A stretch of DNA of 64,000 bases, taken from positions 372,001-436,000 of the forward strand of contig OZ005699.1 of the NCBI GenBank assembly GCA_963930775.1. The letters run 5' to 3'. A program made the position numbers and the translations under genes. The notes under the pieces were generated by a model, which was not told the origin of the DNA, searched no databases, and saw nothing but the letters and a program-made list of their open reading frames with translations. This stretch comes from Cliona cf. orientalis. Taxonomy: Eukaryota; Porifera; Demospongiae; Clionaida; Clionaidae. Shown piece by piece: positions 12,335 to 46,154 of this stretch (position 1 is the stretch's first letter; every line of letters starts with the position of its first letter).

Positions 12335-15330
12335 TTAATGTCCACCACTGTACTCGAAGAAGACAAGACTGGCAGCCATGATGAACATGCCAATGATGAA
12401 GCAACTGGTCACCACCAATCCGTGCTTATCAAACCTGCGAGCGGTTGGTAGAAGATCCTTCAGAGCAACTATGACCATCATTCCACCGACCAAGCCAAAT
12501 ATGAAGCCATAAGCAAGAGGACCGAAGACGTCTTTTAAGATCAGAAAGGCAAGCAGTGCTCCTGTGAGAGTCACAGAGTACACGACATTGTGACAGTGAG
12601 TGTGCCAGGCGGCACATGACATAATATTATGTTGTTATACATGATTACTATGGAGCTTAATTTGTGCCAAAAATACAACTTCAGCTAAAGCTAGCTACCG
12701 CTACTGCTACATCATCCTATAATTCGCTACACCCTCTGCTACTGCATCCGCATTCAGCCGTCCGCTACTGTGTCCGCTACCGAGTCCGCTACTTCATCCG
12801 CATTCAGCCGTCCGCTACTGAGTCCGCTACCGAGTCTGCTACTTCATCCGCATTCAGCCGTCCGCTACTGAGTCCGCTACTGTAACGTTAAAGCGCATGC
12901 GCGTACAAGATTGTACCTTGCGAGTGAAGTTCTTGCACGCAGCATAACAGACGTGACATGCATCAATGGTGACGGTTAATAGCTTCGTCCCCCATTTGGT
13001 TGTTGCCATTGTAAAAAGATGGTTACTATAATGATTATAGAGGATATGGAAGCCACGCCCACCACTGCAGGCCATGCATGTTATGGTAAGACTGTGCATG
13101 AACAAATAATTACCTGGCAAGAATATAAAAGTGTGAACGACTGTTCAGCAATTTGTGTAGCTATAATAGTATAATATATATAGCACACAGATTTTAGATC
13201 TCTATATATAGCTAGTAGCTAACCATCGTCACCATTGATACATGCCACGTATATTATGCTGCGTGCGAGAACTTCGCTTATATTAAATATTATGCACATG
13301 CGCTTTAATGGATCTGAGTCTAGTGGACACAGCAGCGATACTGATGCAGTAGCGGAAGGCTGAATGGGGATGCAGTAGCGGACTCGGTAGCGGACGGCCG
13401 AATGCGGATGCAGTAGCGGACTCGGTAGCGGACACAGTAGTGGACAGCTGAATGCGGATGCAGTAGCGGACAGCGAAACGCGGATGCAGTAGCAGATGGT
13501 GTAGCGAATTAGGATGAAGTAGCAGTAGTGGTAGCTTTAGCTGAAGTTGTATTTTTGGCACAGATTAAGCTCCATAGATTACGCATAATATATAGCTCAG
13601 TTAAGCATTGTGCAAGTGTGATATTATTAGCTCATCACAGCTAACACAGAATGGCTAGTTCAGCTCACTGAGCAATACGCATTGTAGCAGTGAACAAGTC
13701 TATAGTACTTAGACACAATCAAGGACTGTAGAAAAGAAATGAAATTAATTCTCACCAAAAGGTTCAGAGACTCCAGAGAGAAAAGCCCAGAGAAGTCCTT
13801 TCCACTTCTTCCCGGTGGCATAGAAGATGGGAATAGAAACACTGGCACCTTTTGATAATACAATCATGGATCAAGCTAAACATTGGCCTAGGAACGAGGC
13901 TATAAGTTTATAATAATATTATAAGCTAACTCTTTAATAGACATGGCGTAATCATTATTGTTGCATACCTTCAGGGATGTTGTGCACAGCTATAGCAACG
14001 GCCAGAGCAATTCCAAGCTGGGGTCGGGCCAGGCCAACAATGAAAGTGGCAATCCCTTCAGGAAAGTTGTGGATGGCAATGGCAGCAGCTGCATGACATT
14101 GTATGAGGTAGACATGAATATAATATTAGTCTTGGCATGCAGGTCAGTGACACAGGTGTATGAATGACAAATTATTGTATCAGCCCTCATACCCTGTTTC
14201 ATTTGTGTACAAATACAATGTCATAATTTTATATTGGGCTTGCAACATCTAGCTATACATGTAATCACAAAAATTAATGGTCACCATGCATGCATCAGTA
14301 ATAAATAATGCCCTACCAGTGAACAAGCCCATTCGGTGAAGATCCTTACTAGCATCCTTGCCAAGCAAATCCATCACTTCCTTATACTGCTTGGGATCAA
14401 TTGGAGCAGATTTCTACACAAAGTAACAAACACAATTTTACGAACAGAATCGATTGCTTTACCCCTCCCACATGTGCGGAATAATATTGTAAACATACAC
14501 CTTGCGCATGTGCGTGGGGTAATAAGCATGCCTGTACATGCCATACTATTATTATAGCATTATGAAACACTCACTTCTGAATCATCAGAGTTTTCATCAG
14601 TCATGACAACAATCTCGGACTCAGCAGTCGAATCAAATTTTGTTTCACCAGATTTCTCACTCTCTACAACCACATTAGGGACACCGATTGTTTCCTTCTC
14701 TGCATCACGATCCGCACTCTTTCCCGTCAACTTTGATTTCAGACTTTTCATCATGCTGGGGCACTTCTTTCTTTCATCTTGTTCTTCGAGTTCCCCTTCT
14801 GCTTTTGCTTTCTTTTTGCTCCATGGAGGTCTACAGCCCAGGTCCAGGCCCTGCAAGTAATCTAGGAAGAATTGCAGAATTATCGTGAGCACTATTCCCA
14901 AAAAGAAGCATCCGGTTGAGGCCAGAGTGGCGTGCTCTTGCGTGTGACAACAGAAATATTCGCCAGCTTTGCCAAGAATATCGACAAATGAGATGTAGAC
15001 CATGAAACCTGCAGCTAGGGCCAAGCCAACTGCAAGGAGGGTCACGTTGTTACGTTTGAAGCATGGCAAGAAGGATAAAATAGCACCGATGTTTGTGCAA
15101 AATCCAGCTCCAATTGTGAGGCCAAATGCCAGCCCCACATTGTTACCCTCTGCTTTCTCGCAGGTATCTGGACTGGGGCACTTGCTGTAAGGTGGAGGCT
15201 CTTCTGTGCACTGCTGAGTGCAGTTGTCACAGTAGAGATCCATAAGGCTAGTATTATTGCCCATCTCACTGCAATAGCAGAGATAGGGTAGGCAGGCTAC
15301 CACCAGTGCCAAGGAAATCAGATTCTTCAT
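12335..15330 (-). CDS. ZIP-family (ZupT-like) metal transporter, copy A
   Basis: ZIP proteins move Zn2+ or related divalent metals into the cytosol. Exons, minus strand: 15330-14575, 14413-14317, 14088-13969, 13848-13756, 12561-12335, all phases closing to 430 aa. The start [11 protein letters not shown] begins a signal peptide; longer upstream in-frame starts are less likely. A short ectodomain with a cluster of cysteines (YCDNCTQQC) follows, then TM1-TM3, a long charged cytosolic loop, then the paired metal-binding motifs HNFPEG and HNIPEG, and a last helix pair near [17 protein letters not shown]. Motifs and loop position fit the ZupT/ZIP branch. It is a tandem duplicate of the gene at 15830-18010; its fourth intron is enlarged by a 928-bp fold-back transposon. 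Substrate is inferred from family only. Confidence 0.9.
12649..13576. mobile_element. Fold-back non-autonomous transposon, TATGGAG termini, 6-bp TSD
   Basis: The 928-bp element is flanked by GATTAC direct repeats (12643-12648 and 13577-13582). Its ends are TATGGAGCTTAAT and the complement. The inverted arms run inward about 330 bp each and are packed with a GTCCGCTAC-type subterminal repeat, followed by a matched segment around CACGCAGCATAA. It sits in intron 4 of ZIP copy A; the same intron in copy B is only 189 bp. No believable coding region. Its first 27 bases share the TATGGAG start and a GTGYCAAAAATA block at positions 16-27 with the 10-kb transposon at 33673-43727. Confidence 0.9.
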
Positions 15331-15540
15331 AATTTTTGTCAAGGTTGGTAGCCAAGAAGCGCCACACGATCGCGAGCGAAAAGAAAGAGCTGTGTTGAGT
15401 GGAGAGCCGGCCGAGAACGGATCACAGATTGCGAATCGCTGCTTAATCAGCAACGTCCAGGTGTATGGCGAGCTCACGGTGATTGCGCATGCGTACGCGC
15501 ATGCGCACTCGTGGAGCACGGGATGAACAGTGACATTCCC
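15331..15540 (-). promoter_or_regulatory. Upstream region of ZIP copy A with NRF1-like palindromes
   Basis: About 153 bp upstream of the start codon, 15483-15508 holds two overlapping palindromes of the form TTGCGCATGCG and GCGCATGCGCAC, followed by a GGAGCACGGG block. They resemble the vertebrate NRF1 site. The same arrangement precedes copy B, so the promoter was duplicated with the gene. Factor identity is inferred. Confidence 0.5.
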
Positions 15541-15829
15541 GCGAGTTGCTCCCCCCACACAAATAATCTGGTCAGAATAACTATAATGACAGTGCTAAAA
15601 TTATGTATGCATACATGACTAGCTACAATGTCAGTGTTCATAATGCTGCATGATGATAATAATGTGAATGATAGCACTAAGTGAGGTTGTCCTATAATAT
15701 TATAGCCTATTATTTAGATCTAGCTAATTTTCCGTTCAACTGTTCTATACAGTAATTATAATGATATACGTGTTTAATTTTTTTGCAGTTTTTCTGATAC
15801 GCCGGGGCAAGTTTAACGATGTGAGACAC

Positions 15830-18010
15830 CTAACTAGAACCGCCATACCCAAAGAAGACAAGACTGGCAGCCATGATGAACATGCCAACGATGAAGCAGC
15901 TGGTCACCACCAATCCATGCTTGTCGAACTTGCGAGCTGTCGGCAGAAGGTCCTTCAGTGCAACTATGACCATCATTCCACCGACCAAGCCAAATATGAA
16001 GCCATAGGCAAGAGGACCGAAGACGTCTTTTAAGATCAGAAAGGCAAGCAGTGCTCCTGTGAGAGTGAGTGCATGTGTATGAGAGAGTGTGTGTACATGA
16101 TTGTGCATGTATCAATAGACTAACACAATCTATGACATTGTGTAGTTAAATAATTATCTAGTTTGGCTCATTTGCAGCAGTGAACGAGTGAATGATAACA
16201 ATGTTATTATAGTACTATGATCAAGGGCTATAGAAAAGTTCTTACCGAAAGGTTCTGATATTCCGGAGAGAAAAGCCCAGAGAAGTCCCTTCCACCTCTT
16301 CCCAGTGGCGTAGTAGATGGGAATGGAAACACTGACGCCTTTTGAGGATAATACAATAATACATGCATGGATCAAGCTAAACATTGGAAACACAGGGCCT
16401 AAGGATGAGGCAATACCGTAAATCGCAAATATTTCGATGTTAAAATATTTTCGGACAGCATGGCTTGTGCGAAAATTAAACGCTCGAAATACATTAACGA
16501 CAATGCGGTACAGGGTCGTTTGTCCGAAAATTATTTATTGCGAAAAATTATCGCATGAAATATTTTAGACACGAAATATTCGCGATTTACGGTATAATCT
16601 TCAGAAATGATAACTCTAGATGCAGCATAATAATACTTATTGTTGCATACCTTCAGGGATGTTGTGCACAGCTATAGCAACGGCCAGAGCAATTCCAAGC
16701 TGGGGTCGGGCCAGGCCAACGATGAAAGTGGCAATCCCTTCAGGAAAGTTGTGGATGGCAATGGCAGCAGCTGCATGAGATATATATGTATGCATGATAT
16801 TGTATTAGTCTCGGGATGCAGATCAGTGCCACATGCAGGTGGATGAACAGGGTATCTAAATCCATAAAGACAAATATTATTATTATTGTACAAGCCCTCT
16901 AAGAGTCTTAGCTACCTATGTTTCATTTGTAGGGATTGCATCATCTAGCTATACGTGTAATCACAAAATGGTCACCATGCATGCATTATTATCTCCTACC
17001 AGTGAATAAGCCCATTCGGTGAAGATCCTTAGCATCCCCTTTGCCAAGCAAGTCCATGACTTCCTCATACTGCTTGGGATCAATATCAACTTCAGGTTTC
17101 TATAGAAAGTAATAGGTCACAATCTTAATGCACAGAACCGATTGCTTTACCTCTTGAGCATGCACAAGGTAATAAAAATATCCAGGCTTGCGCATGCAGT
17201 GGCACGCGGGATAATAAGCATGCACCTGCCACACCATTACTAATATGATGAGACACTCACTTTGTCAGAGTCTTCATCAGTCATGACAACAATCTCAGAC
17301 TCGGCAGTCGAATCAAATTTTGTTTCACCAGATTTCTCACTCTCTACAACCACATTAGGGACACCGATTGTTTCCTTCTCTGTATCACGATCCGCACTCT
17401 TTCCTGTCAACTTTGATTTCAGACTTTTCATCATGCTGGGGTACGTCTTTCTTTCATCTTGTTCTTCGAGTTCCCCTTCTGCTTTTGCTTTCTTTTTGCT
17501 CCACGGAAGTCTACAGCCCAGGTCCAGGCCCTGCAAGGCATCTAGGATGAATTGCAGAACCAACGTGAGCACTATTCCCAAAAAGAAGCATCCGGTTGCG
17601 GCCAGATCTGCATGATCTTGCGTGTGACAGCAGAAATATTCGCCAGCTTTGCCAAGAATATCGACGAATGATATGTAGACCATGAAACCTGCAGCTAGGG
17701 CCAAGCCAACTGCAAGGAGGGTCACGTTGTTACGTTTGAAGCATGGCAAGAAGGCCAAAATAGCACCGATGTTTGTGCAAAATCCAGCTCCAATTGTGAG
17801 GCCGAACGCCAGCCCCACATTGTTACCCTCTGCTTTCTTGCAGAAATCTGGACTGGGGCACTCGCTGTATGGTGGAGGCTCTTCTGTGCACTGCTGAGTG
17901 CAGTTGTCACAGTAGAGTTCCATAAGGCTAGTATTATTGCCCATCTCACTGCAATAGCAGAGATAGGGTAGGCAGACTACCACCAGCGCCAAGGAGATCA
18001 GATTCTTCAT
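15830..18010 (-). CDS. ZIP-family (ZupT-like) metal transporter, copy B
   Basis: Tandem paralogue of copy A. Exons, minus strand: 18010-17261, 17099-17000, 16770-16651, 16338-16246, 16056-15830, giving 429 aa with all phases closed. Intron positions and phases match copy A. The order is signal peptide, cysteine-rich short ectodomain, three membrane segments, charged cytosolic loop, HNFPEG and HNIPEG metal-site motifs, and the last membrane helices ending FFGYGGSS. The two proteins differ mainly at the N-terminus, the loop, the short segment after the loop ([14 protein letters not shown] versus [13 protein letters not shown]) and the C-terminal residues. Intron 3 holds a MITE at 16414-16594 that copy A lacks. 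Probably both are plasma-membrane or vesicular zinc transporters. Confidence 0.9.
16414..16594. mobile_element. MITE with TACCGTA termini, copy 3 (CGAAAATATT family)
   Basis: Termini TACCGTAAATCGCAAATATT and its imperfect complement ending CGCGATTTACGGTA bound a 181-bp AT-rich interior with an inverted copy of the ACGACCC...TACCGCA core seen in copy 1. It is absent from the matching intron of the sister ZIP gene, which dates it after the duplication, or lost from the sister. Confidence 0.8.
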
Positions 18011-18240
18011 TTTGTCATCAAGGTGAAGATTGGTAGTCAGATCAAGAAGTGCCGCACGATCACGAGCGAGGAGAAAGAGCTGAAAGAAGCGTTGAGCGGA
18101 GAGCCGAGAACAGACCACAGATTGTGAAATATCGCCGCTTAAATACTACACGATGAGGTGTACAGCAAGCTCGGCGATTGCGCATGCGTATATTATATGC
18201 GATTGCGCATGCGCACTCATGGAGCACGGGCCATTAACGT
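18011..18240 (-). promoter_or_regulatory. Upstream region of ZIP copy B with NRF1-like palindromes
   Basis: TTGCGCATGCG at 18178-18188 and TTGCGCATGCGCAC at 18203-18216 lie about 170-205 bp upstream of the start codon, followed by a GGAGCACGGG block as in copy A. The two sites are separated by an extra AT-rich insert compared with copy A. Confidence 0.5.
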
Positions 18241-33666: not shown

Positions 33667-33672
33667 ATCAAC

Positions 33673-33890
33673 TATGGAGTGGTATTAGTGTCAAAAATAG
33701 TATTTGATATGTCCAACAAATCGATCGAAAAACGTGCTGATTCGGCAAATCGATCTGCAAATTGTGCTGATTCAGCAAATCGATCTGCAAATCCTGGGGA
33801 TTCAGGTAATCGATCTGCACTTGTGTTCTGCAAATCGATCTGCAAATTGTGCTAATTCAGCAAATCGATCTGCACTTGCGTTCTGCAAAT
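33673..33890 (+). repeat. Left terminal inverted repeat of the 10-kb transposon
   Basis: After a single-copy first 50 bases it carries one ATCGATCG copy and then five copies of an (A)ATCGATCTGCA motif about 20-30 bp apart, separated by variants of GTGCTGATTCAGC and CTTGTGTTC. Such regular subterminal motifs are usual transposase-binding sites; that role is inferred. Confidence 0.88.
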
Positions 33891-34401
33891 TGATTAATTG
33901 ATTTGCAATTAATTTTGGCTCAGCAAAGTTAATTTTGTTATGCAATGACATCAAAGAATCAAAAAATTAATTATACGGTCTATATTCCCATACCTAAATT
34001 CCCACACAGGGATTTGGGTCTGGGAACCAGAATTGGACTACTATAATAACATTTAAGTAGAGCGACCCCGTACCAAGTGCATGTGCATAATTGTGAAGAC
34101 ATCTAAATAATGATCGCATATAATTATTATAATAGCTTCCTGAGTGCATGTACTTTAATATACACTCTTAGTTTTATATTATTGTTTTGGCATAATAGTA
34201 CAGTTGGCTATATTATATTGTGAGCCAATGTTCATCAACGATCATACTGTTATTAAATAATAATTAAGTACAATAACTCATGATAATGTTGTTACGCATT
34301 TCAACTACCATAACAATAATACAATATAATAATATTATAATTATAATAATATTATCAAGCAAGACCCTTCTAGCTTGCGAGACAGCTGGATGCAATGTGA
34401 G

Positions 34402-36725
34402 TTATAAGAGCATTAATGTAACGTGATCAACTAACTCCACGTACAAGTCTGTTGCGTGATACTCGCTGGTAACAATTCTATCCAGAGTATACAATCTAAG
34501 TAGCCGTTCAGCTTCCATTTCTGAAACAGTTGGTGGTCTGTTGATTATGGGAACATCCACTTGCTCACCATCATCACTGTCTGGAATGGGTTCATTCCAG
34601 TCCACTCCATAGCTCACCTAAAATTACAATGTCATAAGTATAATGTGACTAGTGGGGAATAACTATATACAGCTACCACGCACATGCAGCTTGAGTTCCT
34701 GCATGCAGTTGAGACAGGATGTACACCATATACATCATACTCACATAATTATCAGCTTGATCTCCATAAATCTCATCTGTCACTCTATGGCCTGAATTGT
34801 AATTTCTTAGCATTCCCTGCATCCACAATTGCCTTGGTGATAAGCCATTTGTTGAACTCATTGGGTGACAAGCCCAGCCATCAATAAAATTTGCTATTGA
34901 TGCGTTAATGTATGGATGATAAATCAAGTGTAAGCACCACAGATGAACAGGATCATCACTATTAAGCAAGCCAGTGTCTTCTAGATGATAGAAAAGATGA
35001 TAGAACAGAGAAGTGCAGCCAGTGAATAAATCTCTCCAAAATCTCTCAATCCTTTGATTGTGGACACTACGTCCACTTATAATGCTTCCGCGTCCTATTC
35101 CTCTGAGAGGATGATTAAGCATGTAATAGCCCACCAGAGAATTCTCACCACCCCTGTCACACCTGACTCTTGATGGTAGCCCAAACGATTCTGTTGCATC
35201 TAGGAATAATGTCAGTACTGTTTGAGCTTCATTGTTGCTTGAGCAATAGCAATATACTGGCAGTCTTGAATAGCCGTCAATACCCGCATGAATAACTAAC
35301 TTCCAGCTGTAAAGAAACAGTAATAACTATACTGATAGTGTATAAAGCATGATATTGCTATTAATAAGCCACTGATACTGTGTTATGATAACATTATTGT
35401 AAGACTGGAAAAGTGTAAGGCTTATAATATCAATGTGAGTAAGTCTTGGCTGATTTCTAGCGATTCAAGTTTTAGTTATCTCTTTCTGCAAATTAATTCA
35501 CAAGACATGCTGCGTGTGGCAGGTCTCATATAAATAGTCCTGCGTTGAATCCCTCCAAGACAACTGTGTGACTGCATGGAGTGATCATGACGCCATCAAT
35601 TTTTGGTTCACTTCCACATGGCAAATTCAAACTAATTGCCTGCCGGTTTGTGCTAATAAAATGCTAGATCCAGTTAGTACAATAAATTACCATGTGCTGT
35701 CTGCCAGAATTTGCCATATAAGTAATATTTCATCAGCTCTTATAGAGATACAAAACAATAGTTTAAAAACCAAGTGGACAGATTAATACCATTAATAATA
35801 ATTAGAAATTTTGAAAGAGCTGTATAGCTAGCTAACTGTGCCATGGATTGAGTAGTTTTATGAGGCCTGTTTACCATACAAAAGTGAATGAATTTATATT
35901 GGACCAGGTATGTTTCTATGGGTGATAACGTCATCAATATCCTTATGACATTGTAGTAGTGATGTTTCATCAGATTCTGTGTATATACTAGTATATTATG
36001 TATTAATAATGGTACAATGCCTACCGTATTAACTTGTGATTGCCATCTATATGCCAAAGTGCATTCGGCCCAGCCACTGAGTATGTTCTCCTATGTATTG
36101 ATCGAATCCACCTACTCATAACTCCTAAGGGATCAACCCTTCTGAGAGCATCCCTGACTCTACTCTCTTGAATTCTGTAGCCCATCGCTGCAAGATGTCC
36201 TCTCATTAAACGGTAGCCACAGTTAGGATACTGATTTTGCAACTCCCGTACAAGGGTATCCAATTGAACATCGTCAATAAGACTATAGGTACTTCTTACA
36301 GTGATTCCATATTTCCGCATACGACGCCTCACTGTACTAGTAGAAGTTTGAAGCAATTGTGCTACCTGATGAACATTAAAGTGATTGCCAATTAAGTATT
36401 CCAGTATTTCCTGAGAAATTACAACTCTTGGTCTTCCTCTCTCTCCTGAAATGAACCTAGGTGCTGAAAAAGCATAGGTACTGCTATTGTTGGAATTATC
36501 AACAATCAAGGAGGTAATGCCATTCAATGAAGTAATCACAGACTCTATAAGTCGTAAGCTAGCATCCACTCCAGGTATTACATCCACTAATGCAGCCATC
36601 AGATAGTGCACACGCTCGGCTTTAACACCAAGTGCCTCAATTGTATCTTGACCTATAGAACCATCATCTATTACCCTAGAGACACTTTCGATGAGAGATC
36701 GTAGGTGTTCTGAAAGGATATCCAT
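34402..36725 (-). CDS. Integrase-type DDE transposase (IS3EU-like)
   Basis: Cuts and joins the ends of its transposon in the nucleus. Exons, minus strand: 36725-36025, 35306-34745, 34617-34402, phases closed, 492 aa. A helical N-terminal region precedes a helix-turn-helix at about residues 115-145 (VHQVAQLLQTSTSTVRRRMR) and an IS3-like block PNCGYRLMRGHLAAMGYRI. The rve core has D227 in HIDGNHKLIRW, D284 in RCDRGGEN and E321 in SVHNQRIERFW, a D-56-D-36-E spacing close to the DD35E of IS3 and retroviral integrases. The C-terminus contains YGVDWNEPIPDSDDG. All catalytic residues are present and no frame is broken. It lies between the inverted termini, so mobilising this element is its evident job. 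Confidence 0.92.
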
Positions 36726-37006
36726 CTGTCAGCTGGAATCAATAATTATTATTGAGTGTGTTTTCACAGTCTCACTGCAGGTAGGCTAGACTCTTATTTT
36801 CTCTTACAAATGCAACTTGATAGCGAATCTGCATTAACAATAATCATAGTAAGTTCACTGCACATGCGCACGATCTAATATTACCCGCGCTCGCGCTTAG
36901 CGTACTGACATCCCAACGGAGACGAAACGGAGTCACGTTTCAATACTGTCCGAGCTATATTAAAGGCATTGCTTTGGTTCTTCGCCCCAGTAGCTACAGC
37001 TGCAAA
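36726..37006. promoter_or_regulatory. Bidirectional promoter inside the 10-kb transposon
   Basis: The 281 bp between the divergent transposase and HECT start codons hold a GC-rich patch absent elsewhere in the element (CACATGCGCACG and CCGCGCTCGCGC at about 36860-36900). CACATGCGCA resembles half of the NRF1-like palindrome upstream of the host ZIP genes. Confidence 0.55.
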
Positions 37007-38152
37007 ATGTCATCTGGAGGAGATGGGCCGGGAGGGGATTTCTTACAAGAACAGCTAAGACTATGTTTTGCAACCCTCCAACAGATAGCTAGTAATCTAG
37101 CATCAAGCCAACCTTCTACTCGGGTTTCTTCGACTAGCATGACAGTTGCGTCAGGTGGTGCTCCTTCCAATACAGCAACTAACGCGGCCATAACGACGCC
37201 AACTACTGTAACAATGACCACGCCGTCTACTGTGAGCCTGCCTTCCTCCAACGCTGGAGTCATTCGTGAGTATTTAATAATAATTTATAAACTAAGTCTT
37301 GAATTATTAACAGCTCAGTGATATTATATAAATGATAATAATAATGGATAGTGCGTAGTGGGTCACTGCATAGATAATAGCTATGCTTGCAGTGGTGACT
37401 GTCTGTGTCTACATGCAGCTGCCGGTACCAGATCTAGTAGCCTAACTATATTTAAAACCCTTTTAACATACAGAATCTAAGTATGAGATTAATAACCATA
37501 ATTAACATACCGTTTGAGTAGTGGATCAATTTTGCCAACTGAGTAGCTAGATTAGTCAAGTTTCATGAATTTAAACCATCATAACAAGAGGAGGTGGCTG
37601 AGGTGATAATCAATAGCACTACTTCCTGTATGCATAATAACTGCTTAAGCAGGTATTACTGTAACATAGTCTAAATATTAATTATTATACGGCATTCAAG
37701 AGTTCCACTAAGTTATCCTTATAGACGCCCTACGAGAGCACAGATATGGAGCCATAATTTCCTTTGCCTTGCATCAAGGTATAGCCAACAAGTACCAAGC
37801 AGGCAAGAAAAGGAAGAGCTAAAGGAAGCAGGTCTGGGAGAGCAAAGAGTGAACATAGGACTTAGAGCTTCTGCAGGACAGCTCCATGAAAAATTGATTT
37901 CTGTGTTTCCTAAGCTAGATGGTGCTGGAGGTTATGAGCTTCTTCGTTGCCTACCCAATTCCAGATCACTTGCTAAGCTACAAACCCCACAAGGAGGTCA
38001 TACTCCTGAAAGTCTCAAACAGGATGTTGGGCAAGCTCGAATATACATAAGACTGCTTCAGAGAGACTTGAACACGAACCCACAGGTCTCAACAAGTCAA
38101 CAGCAAAGCAACCAGGACAGTGACGTCATGGTAAGTGTGCAGCCAATAATCA

Positions 38153-38246
<94 letters not shown>

Positions 38247-38767
38247 TTAACACTACCACAGCTGCAACTGCAGTGTGTGTAATTGTCTAACCAACCCACC
38301 TAGTGTGGTCCTTTAGGCCCACCTCCTTGGTGTAGTACCTGCTAATCAGCAGGTGCCTGTAAAAGCTCACAGGGGGGGACTTAATTGACCACATCACTGT
38401 ACAGTGCTCCAATGTTTTGCATTGGCATACTGTACTTTGCTGGTCAGTTTTCCTGTGGAAAGGGTAAATAAGCAGTGGCTAAATCCTTACATCTGTAAGG
38501 TACATACTACTATGCTTTGCAGGTCAGTTGTCTAGGAGAAGTAGGGAATGGCACCTGTCTCTGCCACTATACTGAACTTATAACCTTTGTGACTTGCAAT
38601 ATAACTGAATTAAGCACTTGAGAGCCACTGGCTCTTTACTCTTTACACTGGACAACTGACTTGCAAAGCTCAGTATCACAAATTAAGGCTTTCAGTTTAT
38701 GTACATGTAGTGGCATAACCAGGGGAGCATTTCCTCTAATTCTTCTGGTCTGACCTGCAAAGCATAG

Positions 38768-38798
<31 letters not shown>

Positions 38799-41347
38799 GT
38801 CTTCACATGTGCATTGTATGTATATGTTTACATGTGGCATGATAATTTGTCATAATTATTTTTTTTAACAGACAAGTGGAGTGACAGAGAAATGCTTGAT
38901 GTGTGGTGATGATGTGCCTCTTGAGCGTCTCAGCAGACACCTTGAGCGTTGTATTCAGGAGCATTCATCACATGATGATGACAATGATTTTGAACTAACG
39001 CCGCCGTTCATTTCCTCGCGATCTACCAGTACAACCACTGATATGCAAGGCCATACCACTCCTCAAATATCATCTCCAGCTACATTGCATTTTAATGCTA
39101 TTGCTAGCACATGTGCATATGCGATTGCTGCTACAAATAATTCTTCACCTACAACAGTTGTTGTATCTTCTAGTGTACCTATGCAGTCCTCAATATCTAG
39201 TGAGCCTGGGCCATCATCTCGGCCATCATTCACCAGGCGAGGTGGCTCTAAGTCTTCTGTTGGACAGATGCCTACTTTGTCTACCTCACAAAGCCTGCCT
39301 ACCTCATCTGGATCTTCAACTAATGCTGGCACCATTCCTCTCATTCCTACACCTACATATTATGAATTGTCCGAATCTGATGAAGACCAGTCCCCAGTAG
39401 ATTCTCCACTACATCACTCTGCCTTGCGTGACATGTTTCCACAACTTGACTCAGGGCAAGAGGCACTGCTGCTGGAGTTGTACAACAATAACGTTCACGA
39501 GGTCATTGAAGCTCTCTTGGATGGAGTAAATTCTTCAACTCTACTTCGAAGATTTCAGACGTTAAGAATGATTCCTGGTGTGCAGCACATAGAGGTGAGA
39601 CCTGATCATGTTGTGGAAGATGGTCTACGTTGCCTTTATAAAGGAAGCTTTAATGTGAGTCAGGAAGTAGAGGTTGAATTTGTTGGAACACTGACGACAG
39701 ATCTAGGTGGCCCCAAGAGACAATTTTTCACACAATTTCTGCAGCAAATGCTGACCAAATTACACCTAGTGGAGGAAAACAACGGGGTTTTATTTTTCAC
39801 CTGTAACACAGAGAGCTTGCTGGGTAACCACTACTCACGTCTTGGGCAAGTGATTGTCCACAGTATACTGCAAGGAGGCCCAGCGTTTCCATGCTTGCCT
39901 AAGGCAGTCTACTATTACCTGATCGGAGGAATTGAGCTGGCTATATCACACCTGAGTGTGGATGAGCTTCCCCTAGAAGTGCAGTTCATAGTGAGAAAGG
40001 TACATAACTATGTAACTGATAATAGTCTGATTGTTTAGTCATAGGTGTAACGGGTTTCCTACTAATGCTTAAACAAGGTTGTACTAGCTATGTGGGCAAG
40101 TCACTAGAAGCAGGATGAAAGAGTACATGGTGCTATGTTTAAACATTGAAGGGTGTTTGTGGTTTTAAACTTAGCCACACCAAATGCAAAAGGATTTTTT
40201 AAAGTAGCTCGGGATTCTATGTAAATCCCTTTAGTCTTCTAAATCACAGAAACCTCCTAAACAGTGTCTAACAAATATTGCGTGACTTAGTGTGTGTCTA
40301 TAAAACAACTAGTGCTCACTAGAGCACTTATCCCGCGTATATGGCATATTTCAGACAGCTAAGAAGCGTTATATCACAGACAAACGAGCAGCACTAGATT
40401 GTGAGTATGGAACCACAGATAGGCCCAAACCACCTACTAAACGAATCCTTAACTGTGGCTCCACCTACTTCTGTTTGTTCAGGGTGTGCGCGCGAAGTAC
40501 TGTTGGCTCCGGAGGTAGAGAGCTGACGGTGTCAACCATTACCGGACAAAGGTGAAAAAATACATAAAAATCGCGGCTGTGGTTATCATTAATTATATGA
40601 CACATAAATCAACATAAATGGCATCATAAACAACATCATCCTTCTTATATCTTGCCTTTAGATTTGAAGATTGATCCAAAAATTGTGAAATAATACATGA
40701 GTACATAAATTAATACAATGTAATATGCATTGTCCAGAAACTACCTCTGAAAGGTCTTTGCAATTATGTGTGAGGTGTCCAGTAACTGTCTCTGTCCAAA
40801 AATACCCTACGCTATATACTCTACACTTGTTCTAGTTTTAATAATAATAATTGTGCCTTTATGATTTGATGATCTCTACTTACAATTGAGTTACAGTAGA
40901 TAGCACACAAAAGCAATTGCTTTACCCCTTGCCACGTGTAGTAAAAACCAGACCCTGTAAATTAGTGATATTATAAGACTAATTTATGCTAACAAAATCA
41001 TGATAGGTCATTTTAGCTGAAACTGAGCAAGAGCTGGTTGAGATAAGAAGCAAAGAAGAGTACTTGACTGTATCGTCTGGGGTTCTTGTGTTGCTTACCG
41101 TAAGTATAGTATAGTTGAAATTTTTTTGCCACACACATTCATTTTTTTGCTACCCTCTAAATCTTTCTGCTTGTAAAGGATCAACCACAACAATAATATG
41201 ACATTTATGCATGCCAGTGTGCGCACAATAATTATTTTTATGCATATGTACAAATGGGGGTGCAGTGCTACTTGCCAAAGCTATGACATTGTCCTTGTTA
41301 ATCTGTAGACTTGAATTATTGTCAGTTGCATAAGTGGAGAAGGAAGT

Positions 41348-41383
<36 letters not shown>

Positions 41384-42775
41384 GCGAGCCCCTTCACTTT
41401 GAAAGAAGGTGCCAGGGGCAGTGGCGGATCCAGGATTTCTTGAAGGAGTTTCTGTTATATGTTTGTGCGCAAAGCGCACGCAAATTTTTAGAAGCCACAC
41501 CCATTTTTGAGTGAACCCCGCCCATTTCAATCGAAACTACCAGCCCAATCGATCTGATTTCGAACAACTTTTCTGCTAATACAAGCCATAGTAGCAGTTA
41601 TCTTAGGTCTGTAGTCAGAGAGAGGGTTCCATTTTCTGAAAATCACGGCCAGTCAAGTCAGGCCAAATTGTGAATCCAATAATAGCAATGGACGACCCCG
41701 TACCGTACTGTAGTATACGTGCACGTTTATGTTTGCAAATCTATTAATTGCGAAACATAGAAAAACTTGCAATTCGCAATTAATAGATACTCGCAGTTAA
41801 AACTCAACCTACGGTATACACGATAAAAAGAAGCCTCAAACTATAAATTACTATCATGCAGTTGTTTTTGAAGCCTGCAGGAACCCCCCCTCACTTTAGC
41901 AGAGCATCCCATGCCCTTGGGCTATACACCTACTGTTGAATGAGTTGCCAGGAGTATATGTGACTGGAAAAATAGTTTCACCAAGCCCAGCTATATACGT
42001 ACCTCGGTGTTTGCAGAAAACTGGAATCTTTACACAGAACGACCATTACCGACCATCGAATGGTCGGTAATGGTCGTCACACGGATATGTAGAGATCCCA
42101 CGTATATATACCCCCTCTCAATGCTAGCATGTTCTATTATTAGTAGTAAGTTATACCATATAATTATACAAATTATGCATTATAATATAAACTTCCACAG
42201 ATGGCCACGAGAGAATATATCATACAACAAATTATGCTTAATCAAGTCATCTGCTTTAGGAAAGCTGCGATAGACCAGTTCTTGGATGGCCTGTGTTCTC
42301 TCAGGTTCAATGAACTGATCATTAATTTCCCTAAAGAAATGGAGCCACTATTTTTAGCAGCGCTAGATTCAACTCCCACCAATGAAGAGTTGATTGCAAT
42401 GCTTAAGCTCTCAGGCACACCAACTGCTCCAGAGGAGGCAACATTTCTTATGCTGAAAGATTACATCCGGTCGCTTAGCTCAAAAGGTTATTAGCTATAG
42501 CTGTATTAGAAAAGAATATTGTATGAGTGAGGATTATTATTATTCTTCCTTCAGATTGTGGAATGTTTCTACAGTTTTGCACTGGAGCAATCTCCGTTCC
42601 TCCAATTGGATTTTCAAGTGGCAACCCTTTCATAATGGTATCGGTTTCAAGTGAGTCTGCTATCCAAGCATGCACTTGCTTCAGCTCACTGAAGATACCT
42701 CAGTTTGAAAGTTACGATCTCCTGGCTAGCTCATTTAATGGTGTAATTTTTTCTAATGAATTCAATACAATGTAA
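37007..42775 (+). CDS. Transposon-borne zinc-finger/CUE-like/HECT ubiquitin-ligase-like protein
   Basis: HECT proteins pass ubiquitin through a catalytic cysteine to substrates. Exons: 37007-37269, 37725-38130, 38872-39999, 41007-41099, 42201-42486, 42555-42775, all phases closed, 798 aa. Order: Ser/Thr-rich N-terminus; conserved block (WSHNFLCLAS, FPKLDGAGGYELLRC, VGQARIYIRLLQRDL, about residues 90-205); CCHC-like finger CLMCGDDVPLERLSRHLERC (about 230-250); Ser/Thr-rich linker; CUE-like LRDMFPQLDSGQEALLLELY (about 408-440); HECT lobe from about 474 (VEFVGTLTTDLGGPKRQFF) to a C-lobe with cysteine about 767 in ACTCFSSLKIPQF. The fourth exon is set by phase: acceptor 41005-41006 keeps the frame. 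Similar HECT genes are abundant in fish and corals. An E3 role for the element or its host is inferred. Confidence 0.88.
38157..38244. repeat. (TG)n microsatellite
   Basis: An almost perfect TG run of about 44 units directly follows the donor side of the HECT gene intron 2. Confidence 0.95.
38769..38797. repeat. Poly-G tract
   Basis: An uninterrupted run of 29 G in HECT intron 2, a potential G-quadruplex or assembly-error site. Confidence 0.9.
41348..41381. repeat. Poly-G tract
   Basis: A run of 34 G in the HECT gene intron 4. The poly-Gly and poly-Pro open frames here are artefacts of it. Confidence 0.9.
41699..41818. mobile_element. Possible MITE with TACCG/CGGTA ends inside the 10-kb transposon
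   Basis: Outer TACCGTACTG and CTACGGTA bracket an inner perfect inverted repeat ATCTATTAATTGCGAA. The sequence just left reads GACGACCCCGTACCG, the core word also found inside the MITEs at 8294 and 16414. Its ends are less certain than those of the other copies. Confidence 0.45.
42039..42077. repeat. Perfect 18-bp hairpin in HECT gene intron 4
   Basis: ACGACCATTACCGACCAT, loop CGA, then the exact complement. It lies about 120 bp before the acceptor of the fifth exon. Confidence 0.88.
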
Positions 42776-43497
42776 CATTACACAACTTAACTTTGAATAT
42801 TATTAAGTTTACTCTTCTCTTTTCTATACTATAATATCAAGCTAATTGGACTTTTGTAATAATAGTAATTGAATTATGCTTGCTATATACATTGACACTG
42901 CTGAGATATTATGGGTACTTACTGTACAGGGAGAAACTTTGGTAAAACGGATACTCTCCAATCATGAACACTAGCAATTTTGTCTAACTTCCATTTTATA
43001 ACTAGCTATAGTGTCACAACCAACCATAATTTTTGCACATAGACACAGGTAGGTAGTGTGCATACATGCACAATAATAATTTTATTGTTTCAACTTTATA
43101 CCCAACAAAAAAACTCGATTTTTGTGAGTGTTTCTTACAAGGAGCAGTTTCATATTATATGGTACAGCTACCTAATTCGGTATAGATCGTCAAATTTAAA
43201 AACCTCCCAATTGACTCATACCGTAGTAGTCTCGCAAGCCACACCCTTAAATCTCCGCAGATTTAAGGGTGTGGCTTGCGAGACTACTACGGTCCGGTAT
43301 GAGTGATGAAGAGCTGGGTCTGGGAACAAGACTTACCCTAGCAACGGCGGCCGGTTCCCAGCATGGAAACAGTAGCTGGGAATGGGCCTAGGGACAAAAC
43401 TTGCAGCTGATTGTAAATTTCATCGAATTGCAGATCATGCATGTCACTTGCAGATCGCTTGTTGAACCAGTACAATTTTTATACCACACAATGAGTG
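42776..43497. other. Transposon interior between the HECT stop and right terminus
   Basis: No coding sequence supported. It includes the HECT 3' flank, a 74-bp perfect hairpin at 43220-43293, and a GGGTCTGGGAAC segment that is also found near the left end (about 34017). Confidence 0.6.
43220..43293. repeat. Perfect 35-bp hairpin
   Basis: The arms start ACCGTAGTAGTCTCGCAAGC and are exact complements over 35 bp around a CCGC loop. Partial symmetry extends outward (CTCATACCG and CGGTATGAG). It is likely a small MITE nested in the large transposon, or a transcript hairpin. Confidence 0.9.
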
Positions 43498-43727
43498 AGT
43501 CGCAGATCGATTTGCTGAATCAGCACAATTTGCAGATCGATTTGCAGAACACAAGTGCAGATCGATTACCTGAATCCCCAGGATTTGCAGATCGATTTGC
43601 TGAATCAGCACAATTTGCAGATCGATTTGCAGAACACAAATGCAGATCGATTTGCCAAATCAGCACGTTTTTCGATCGATTTGTTGGACATATCAAATAC
43701 TATTTTTGACACTAATACCACTCCATA
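43498..43727 (-). repeat. Right terminal inverted repeat of the 10-kb transposon
   Basis: Reverse complement of the left end, with six TGCAGATCGATT motifs plus the terminal CGATCGATTTG. It has one more subterminal unit than the left end and the same 50 bases at the tip, ending CCACTCCATA. Confidence 0.9.
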
Positions 43728-43870
43728 ATCAACCTCCCTCACTTGGATTTGTTATTATGAAACTAATGTAATGGGCTTAGCATATTATATAGTGGCTGCG
43801 TGCAGTAAAATTATTAAGGCATTGTTAATGTACTATGGTGTGTGACATTAACTGTATGTAACTGTATGTG

Positions 43871-44696
43871 CTAAATGTATTCGTATGTGTCAGCTGCTTC
43901 TTCTTGTTGGTTGTATTGTCCGTAGGCAATATTCTCTATTATCTCGTTATTGTTTGGTTCCGCTGACAATTTTGAACCATGCGCTCTGTTCTCTTCTGTC
44001 TTCAAATCTGAATCATTTGCTACGATATCAATAATATCGTCTAGTTCATATGCTTGATCAATTTCTGTTGCTGAATTGATCTTGTGTGCTCTGTTTGGCT
44101 CAGTTGAATCATAATCGTAATACACCGCTTGATTAACTTCATTGTTTGTCAAATTTGTGCCATATGCTAGATTTGCTTCAACTTTCAGCTCTGAAGCAGA
44201 ATATTCATATTCTGCAGCACTTTCTTCCTCTGCAGCATAATCAGTAGGTATAGGTGGCAGTGGGAGATGATGGATGGCTGGGGCTTGCGAGTTTTCCACC
44301 ATCGATGTCTCGCTATCCACCGCGATCTGGGTGGATTGTTTAGCTCTCTCGTACTTTCTGCATGTACATATCAAAGCTATGACGAGGCATATGATACATA
44401 TGGGCATTGAGATGCATATGAGGAGGATTATCACAATCACTGAGATTATGACAGCAATGATATTGACACCACCTGAGTTGGACTGTCCTGCATATTATGC
44501 ATGTATACATGTGCAGGGAGTAGTTAATTTTCAGCTACTGTATTATCTATTCCCATTATAGGCCTTTACACATTAATTTGCTTGTAGCTGTAGTTATTTC
44601 TTGCTCACCGGTACCTTTACATTCATCAATAGAGAGTAGTAGAAAGATCACTAAAATGCTCCACAAAGAGTAGAAATTCAGCTTGATAACTGCCAT
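43871..44696 (-). CDS. Short-ectodomain, tyrosine-rich transmembrane adaptor-like protein (copy 1)
   Basis: Exons, minus strand: 44696-44615 (signal peptide MAVIKLNFYSLWSILVIFLL) and 44487-43871, 232 aa, phases closed. After the signal peptide only about 12 residues (CKGQSNSGG) remain outside before one membrane helix (IIAVIISVIVIILLICISMP). The cytosolic tail of about 170 residues is acidic with about a dozen tyrosines: a proline-rich PLPPIPTDY, EYEYSAS, NLAYGTN, VYYDYD, AYELDD, NIAYGQYNQ and a C-terminal TYEYI. The NxAY words resemble NPxY-type PTB-binding sites. A tiny ectodomain with a phosphotyrosine-style tail is the layout of LAT- or DAP12-like adaptors, without sequence similarity that I can see. 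Duplicated at 45393-46154. Confidence 0.75.
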
Positions 44697-45392: not shown

Positions 45393-46154
45393 TTATATGT
45401 CAGCTGCTTCTTCTAGTTGGTTGTATTGTCCGTAGGCAATATTCTCATCTGTTGCTATTACTTCATTGTTATTGTTTAGTTCCGCTGACAATTTTGAGCC
45501 ATACGCTGTGTTCTCTTCTGTCTTCAATTCTGAATCATTTGCTACGATATCAATAATATTGTCTAGTTCATATGCTTGGTCAACTTCTGTTGCAGAATTG
45601 TCGTGTGCTCTGTTTGGCTCAATTAAATCATAATCCGCTTGATTAACTTCATTGTTTGTCAAATTTGTGCCATATGCTATATCCGCTTCAACTTTCAGCT
45701 CTGAAGCAGAATATTCATATTCTGCAGTAGCTACCTTCTTCCTCTGCAGCATAATCAGTAGGTATAAGTGGCAGTGGGAGATGATGGATGGCTCAGTGGG
45801 GTTTGTGCATGCGCAGGTAGCGAGTTTTCCATCGTCGATGTGCATGCTAGCTATCCACCGCGATCTGGGTGGATTGTTTAGCTCTCTCATACTTTGTGCA
45901 CGAACGTACCAAAGCTATGACGAGGCATAATATGACACAGATGCATATGAGGACGGCTATCACAATGATAGAGATTATGGTAGCATTACCTGAGTCGAAT
46001 TGTCCTGCATGTGCATGTATACAGGGAGTTTAAATTAATTTTCACTTGTAGCTATAGTTATTTCGTGCTCACCTTGACATTCATCAATAGAGAGTAGTAG
46101 AAAGATCACTAAAATGCTCCACAAAGAACAGAAATTCAGCATGATAACTGCCAT
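45393..46154 (-). pseudogene. Adaptor-like gene copy 2, disrupted
   Basis: Paralogue of the gene at 43871-44696: signal exon 46154-46073 (MAVIMLNFCSLWSILVIFLL) joins in phase to 46013-45393, with the same small ectodomain and membrane helix. After IAVDS a small insertion gives an in-frame TAG where copy 1 reads SETSMVEN, and further indels near 45735 and 45800 change frame. The tail downstream stays open and well conserved (EYEYSASELKVEADIAYG to ENIAYGQYNQLEEAADI). Either the gene is dead, or it makes a truncated membrane stub, or splicing removes the damaged part; no plausible intron was found. Confidence 0.65.

Follow-up and report, generated by a model that had tools for sequence, protein, structure and literature searches.

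A complete IS3EU element with two genes

The window analysed here, a 64,000-nucleotide stretch of the genome of the sponge Cliona cf. orientalis, contains at positions 33673–43727 a complete DNA transposon of the IS3EU superfamily (10,055 bp), in which a transposase gene and a gene for a HECT-type ubiquitin ligase are arranged head to head. The window sequence shows a perfect 6-bp target site duplication, ATCAAC, on either side of the element (33667–33672 and 43728–43733). Comparison of the two arms places the terminal inverted repeats (TIRs) at 33673–33876 (left, plus strand) and 43498–43727 (right, minus strand). The TIRs are about 200 bp long and near-identical: the first 69 bases are the same in both arms, after which the right TIR has 25 extra bases, and a further ∼130 bases of the arms then agree except for one mismatch and a gap of one base. 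The left TIR contains subterminal GCAAATCGATCTGC repeats, and the number of repeats of this type differs between the arms. The termini, TATGGAG..CTCCATA (TATGG..CCATA), agree with the TA..TA and TAYGG..CCRTA ends of IS3EU elements.

The transposase gene lies on the minus strand and consists of three exons separated by GT-AG introns, which together form one open frame of 492 aa. Exon 1 (36025–36725) encodes a helix-turn-helix-like region (Pfam HTH matches are below cut-off) and the first catalytic Asp, exon 2 (34745–35306) the second Asp and the Glu, and exon 3 (34402–34617) includes the stop codon. The protein matches Pfam rva_4 (1.2e-75), and its integrase core of the DDE type is close to those of bacterial IS481 (3e-12) and IS3 (4.6e-11), as in IS3EU, both of these matches being under NCBIfam's own cut-offs. 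The catalytic residues are D227, D284 and E321, with 36 residues between the latter two. When the window transposase was aligned with 15 relatives, chosen among the 120 listed, D227 and E321 proved invariant and D284 nearly so. One pattern for the HHCC zinc motif was tried on residues 1–226, upstream of the catalytic core, and gave no match, again as in IS3EU. Among the candidates scored, 1,374 relatives of the transposase were found at E 0.001; the best 120 of these include proteins from sponges, corals, molluscs, an acorn worm and fish. Scans of viral contigs with HECT exon 3, the transposase and a 16-protein transposase alignment revealed no relative.

The HECT gene lies on the plus strand, and its start codon is separated from that of the transposase gene by a 281-bp spacer (36726–37006), which presumably serves both genes as a shared divergent promoter. 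Its six exons, joined at GT-AG introns, encode a protein of 798 aa with a ZnF-CUE-HECT organization, the sole stop being terminal. Exons 1 (37007–37269) and 2 (37725–38130) both have counterparts in a second gene pair of this type, at locus L059 (described below). Exon 2, which encodes a conserved N-terminal domain (AGLGEQRV..YELLR), is 47% identical to its counterpart, from which its reading frame was settled, and is similar to an exon in P0135. A Cys/His zinc-finger-like motif, a Ser/Thr-rich linker, a CUE-like domain and the HECT N-lobe are all encoded by exon 3 (38872–39999), which is followed by exons 4 (41007–41099) and 5 (42201–42486) and by exon 6 (42555–42775) with the HECT C-lobe and its catalytic cysteine, Cys767. 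The HECT domain scores 46.2 bits against PF00632 (curated cut-off 23.9), the protein is homologous to the cellular HECT ligase TOM1 (2.5e-10), and Cys767 aligns with the catalytic Cys of both TOM1 and AREL1. The CUE-like domain is borderline in the window protein (21.3 bits when exons 3–6 are searched and 20.8 bits for the whole protein, at a Pfam cut-off of 21.1) and scores 24.8 bits in the L059 protein. The window HECT protein has 14 other relatives, which carry the source labels lgn, ena and jgi; none is informatively named. The structure models were of low quality (mean pLDDT 54.2 and 52.8) and a fold search of the PDB retrieved nothing at E 0.001; no inference was drawn from them.

The matched inverted ends with the ATCAAC duplication, the intact three-exon DDE transposase, the intact six-exon HECT gene with all phases closing and the assignment to IS3EU had been put forward in a first-pass annotation of the window, and all are borne out by the present analysis. 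For the assignment, the termini, the 6-bp duplication and the type of transposase match the descriptions in the main texts of PMC10045372 and PMC12730594.

Two minor features lie within the element. The HECT introns hold long TG and G runs (∼38158–38245, 38770–38797 and 41350–41381), and near the right end there is a 35-base perfect hairpin (43220–43293), which may be a small nested insertion.

Related families with both genes

Elements with both genes are also present elsewhere in the assembly, in sister families with the termini TATGGC..GCCATA. Two 8.1-kb elements, at C5:4265879–4273971 and C3:5136888–5144983, are 99.6% identical from end to end (8,108 alignment columns), possess TIRs of ∼330–345 bp and are flanked by different perfect duplications, CGCCCT and CGATCG, respectively. 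In each, the transposase gene is situated close to one end and is followed, tail to tail, by a HECT gene on the opposite strand. The combination of near-identity and different duplications means that the transposase–HECT pair has recently moved together. When the C5 copy was read as a whole, extra upstream frames were found on the HECT strand that reach near the other end of the element and look like N-terminal exons of the HECT gene.

Two further elements of ∼11 kb (C6:3764744–3776125 and C9:4540916–4552597) have both ends, a transposase and a HECT gene, and perfect duplications (GGGGCG and GGGGCC); their far ends align to the query TIR with 74% identity over 101 bases. Therefore, counting the window element, five elements have the two genes, two recognisable ends and a perfect duplication. 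Outside the window family and the C5 and C3 pair, the 6-bp duplication was found in seven of eight elements, the eighth being L020 (C9:3366509), which has both genes and an unrecognisable right end. Perfect 6-bp duplications likewise flank short relatives with ends of the C5/C3 family on C16, C10 and C19.

All five families in which the C-lobe was read (window, L013, L018, L025 and L031) retain the motif of the catalytic Cys. When four proteins of the convergent families were compared with the Pfam HECT model, three exceeded the cut-off of 23.9 and L025 was just below it (22.7). L059 (C1:28857300–28866500) is a second head-to-head pair of an IS3EU transposase and a CUE-HECT gene, with introns of several kb and HECT exons 36–47% identical to those of the window.

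Two larger segments, C12:1869647–1886977 (17.3 kb; CGCATG) and C2:2847834–2859672 (11.8 kb; CGCGCG), are likewise bounded by C5/C3-family TIRs and flanked by perfect duplications; the latter contains transposase matches.

HECT and transposase genes are often paired in the genome

A transposase search of the 216.8-Mb assembly yielded at least 91 exon-wise matches, which merged to at least 63 loci; these are lower bounds, 87 of 214 candidates having been scored. A Pfam HECT search gave 110 matches, merged to 60 loci. Of these, 20 are located within 5 kb of 20 of the 63 transposase loci, compared with 0.19 HECT loci expected at random places; on the transposase-dense contig C1 alone the figure is 10 of 15 HECT loci versus 0.30 expected. 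The arrangement is uniform, with 19 of the 20 pairs oriented tail to tail and a spacing of 289–1329 bp in 19/20. HECT genes were recognized at seven more transposase loci, either by direct reading (the window and L059) or with locus-built profiles (L011, L020, L025, L026 and L036), for which reversed stretches used as a control gave no match at E 0.001. The resulting figure of 27/63 transposase loci with a HECT gene is a lower bound, the Pfam model missing some. The head-to-head layout is confined to the window and L059, other pairs being arranged differently: eight 6-kb stretches upstream of other transposases contained no head-to-head HECT gene, and HECT genes were found on the opposite side of many of these transposases.

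IS3EU transposase matches are particularly dense at C1:16.7–36.6 Mb, in the second half of this 37.5-Mb contig, which exceeds in length the others encountered; 10 of the 20 pairs are located there. At C11:171743–185028 and C19:2571021–2584081, inverted transposase pairs with equal match scores and ∼13 kb between them show a common layout; each may be a single large element whose ends are duplicated.

Shared history and selection

The first-pass annotation had proposed comparing HECT and transposase trees across copies, and on six families the two proteins do agree. Pairwise distances are correlated (Mantel r 0.81; a value as high arose in 2 of 720 permutations, one of them the true order), partly owing to a split into two groups, and the nearest neighbours, window–L059 and L018–L025, are the same for both proteins. 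The families compared (window, L059, L013, L018, L025 and L031) are those with enough alignable sequence of both proteins; near copies (L020, L021 and L026), broken or cut copies (L019, L023 and L024) and loci represented by pieces only (L011, L017 and L036) were omitted. The HECT protein diverges faster than the transposase, as illustrated by L018–L025, which are 49% identical in the former and 67% in the latter.

Among young copies, the dN/dS ratio of the HECT gene is 0.14 (L018/L021), 0.24 (L018/L020) and 0.25 (L021/L020), and that of the transposase gene in the same comparisons is 0.28, 0.09 and 0.37. The ratio is uninformative for older pairs, in which silent sites are saturated, and for L025/L026, which are too alike.

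Short copies of the window family

In order to identify further members of the window's own family, the assembly was searched with the 25-base terminus of the element, allowing up to two mismatches. The terminus occurs at 14 places, all of them in inverted pairs (7 pairs), and the same 25 bases read backwards gave no match. A short loose terminus pattern was also tried and proved uninformative (67 forward and 56 reverse places versus 34 and 32 for the control).

Besides the window element, the family comprises six short copies (850, 916, 918, 924, 1134 and 3048 bp), all with perfect 6-bp duplications (GGCTAT, ATCTCT, CATTAA, GAGGAC, ATGCAC and GCGGTC). They resemble the window element in their end regions only, and none of them is among the matches listed by the genome transposase search. 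In the longest (C2:7374167–7377214), matches to the two genes are weak, the best being to the transposase at E 0.022. Judged from their sequences, the short copies are non-autonomous, because they are only 850–3048 bp long and contain no transposase match beyond that in the longest copy. They prove the ends of the element and the 6-bp rule, and show that its genes are dispensable in cis.

The HECT gene as part of the mobile unit

We conclude that the HECT gene is a regular, selected gene of the IS3EU mobile unit, with a probability of about 0.93. It is a recurrent second gene rather than a neighbour because the two genes have recently moved together in sister families and co-occur genome-wide, because their proteins diverge together and because the HECT dN/dS ratio is low. 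The claim of the first-pass annotation that the ligase gene belongs to the mobile unit is thus upheld, by the 99.6% identical elements that both carry it between different duplications and by the genome-wide co-occurrence.

Several observations weigh against this conclusion. No second full copy of the window family is present in the assembly, so that movement of the HECT gene is visible only in the sister families. None of the six short copies (0/6) has a HECT match, and the HECT gene is therefore not needed in cis. It was not seen at 36 of the 63 transposase loci, 25 of which were searched with Pfam only and 11 also in 1.5 kb of flank (L012 and L014 in 6 kb upstream as well). One of the 20 pairs, L038, has both genes on the same strand, and the HECT copies of L019 and L020 are each split into two frames. 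The dN/dS test is based on three closely related copies only. Finally, an inverted-match search from C1:28852650 to C1:28869000 found no TIR for the L059 pair; a HECT piece on the same strand at C1:28873283 suggests that this element extends further right.

Same-terminus copies consistently lacking the HECT gene had been named in the first-pass annotation as grounds for rejecting its proposal. Taken literally, that is what all six other copies show, but they are non-autonomous, and the sister families carry both genes. Elsewhere in the assembly, both genes were found between the TATGGC..GCCATA ends of the sister families and not between copies of the window element's own terminus.

Relation to known systems

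According to the main text of PMC10045372, IS3EU/GingerRoot elements have TA..TA ends, 6-bp duplications and an integrase-core transposase related to IS3/IS481 that lacks an upstream HHCC motif. The window element shares all of these features; it differs in that HECT or ubiquitin is not mentioned in that main text, whereas here a HECT gene is the recurrent second gene. The IS3EU elements of rust fungi described in the main text of PMC12730594 are similar in their ends (TAYGG..CCRTA), their 6-bp duplications and the presence, beside the transposase, of genes for enzymes that modify protein or DNA. Those enzymes are an alpha-kinase, encoded opposite to the transposase, and TET/JBP dioxygenases, the genes for which move between transposon superfamilies in fungi, IS3EU included; the enzyme here is a ubiquitin ligase, and neither HECT nor ubiquitin appears in the main text of that paper.

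With cellular HECT E3 ligases (TOM1, HUWE1, AREL1 and UBE3A) the window protein shares HECT homology and the catalytic Cys of the C-lobe. Unlike them, it is transposon-encoded, is 798 aa long and has its own N-terminal domain, and the convergent families are marginal with the Pfam HECT model. Some transposons carry SUMO-protease genes and thus also encode an enzyme of ubiquitin-like pathways; such proteases remove a modifier, whereas a HECT ligase adds ubiquitin. To our knowledge, few eukaryotic DNA transposons carry enzymes acting on host protein turnover. No report of a HECT gene in IS3EU or any other TIR transposon was found among the papers listed from the literature searched, outside of which lie Repbase Reports and subscription papers, where a prior mention is possible. 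Within that literature, the superfamily is known, and a HECT ligase as its recurrent second gene appears to be new.

Possible role of the ligase

The transposase would bind the TIRs and subterminal repeats and move the two-gene unit. The element-made ligase would load ubiquitin on Cys767 and tag target proteins chosen by its N-terminal part, with its zinc-finger-like, CUE-like and unnamed domains. The target may be a host protein that limits the element, through silencing or DNA repair, for which we consider the chances to be slightly below even. A role in trans toward host factors fits slightly better than one tied to the transposase, because the HECT protein changes faster and is absent from the short copies that still moved.

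It is unlikely, though by no means far-fetched, that the ligase instead acts on its own transposase or the transposase–DNA complex, either removing it after strand transfer or keeping its level low and so sparing the host. The two proteins diverge together and the window start codons are only 281 bp apart, so that the promoter may be common, as such a role might lead one to expect; however, co-divergence is expected of any two genes in one element, and the HECT protein evolves faster than its would-be substrate (49% versus 67% identity for L018–L025). That the HECT gene is an idle passenger, acquired a single time and since carried unused, appears very improbable: the broken copies at L019 and L020 would fit, as would the switching of TET/JBP genes between superfamilies of fungal transposons (main text of PMC12730594), but the HECT dN/dS is 0.14–0.25 in three comparisons, the catalytic Cys motif is present in 5/5 families read, and the gene is retained across families with transposases just 50–56% identical. 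The idea that an IS3EU element landed by a host HECT gene, or that elements prefer sites near such genes, has virtually nothing left to it: HECT genes are numerous in animals and 40 of the 60 HECT loci in this genome have no transposase locus within 5 kb, but in five elements the gene lies inside TIRs and perfect duplications, which refutes the idea for those five, the C5/C3 elements match at 99.6% along their whole length, and orientation and spacing are each shared by 19/20 pairs.

If the HECT gene is, as we conclude, a standard and selected transposon gene, its ubiquitin ligase would offer a direct way into the question of how such elements evade or adjust host control; since intact copies exist, this can be tested through the change of a single cysteine. 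Tentatively, and with the odds leaning somewhat against so broad a proposal, animal IS3EU may be a two-gene transposon whose HECT ligase disarms host control via protein destruction. Across kingdoms, the position opposite the transposase would then be occupied by an enzyme that modifies proteins (HECT in animals, alpha-kinase in rust fungi), and transposon genes or their descendants would account for much of the abundance of short HECT genes in sponges, cnidarians, molluscs and fish. A third of the Pfam HECT loci (20/60) lie beside an IS3EU transposase; apparent HECT gene expansions may therefore be transposon copies, which should serve as a warning for genome annotation.

Neighbouring open reading frames

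Two pairs of similar open reading frames are found on the minus strand outside the element. Those at 43871–44494 and 45393–45914 adjoin the element and have no Pfam match. The other pair is located at 14560–15594 and 17240–18145, the first of the two having a sub-cut-off match to ZIP zinc transporters.

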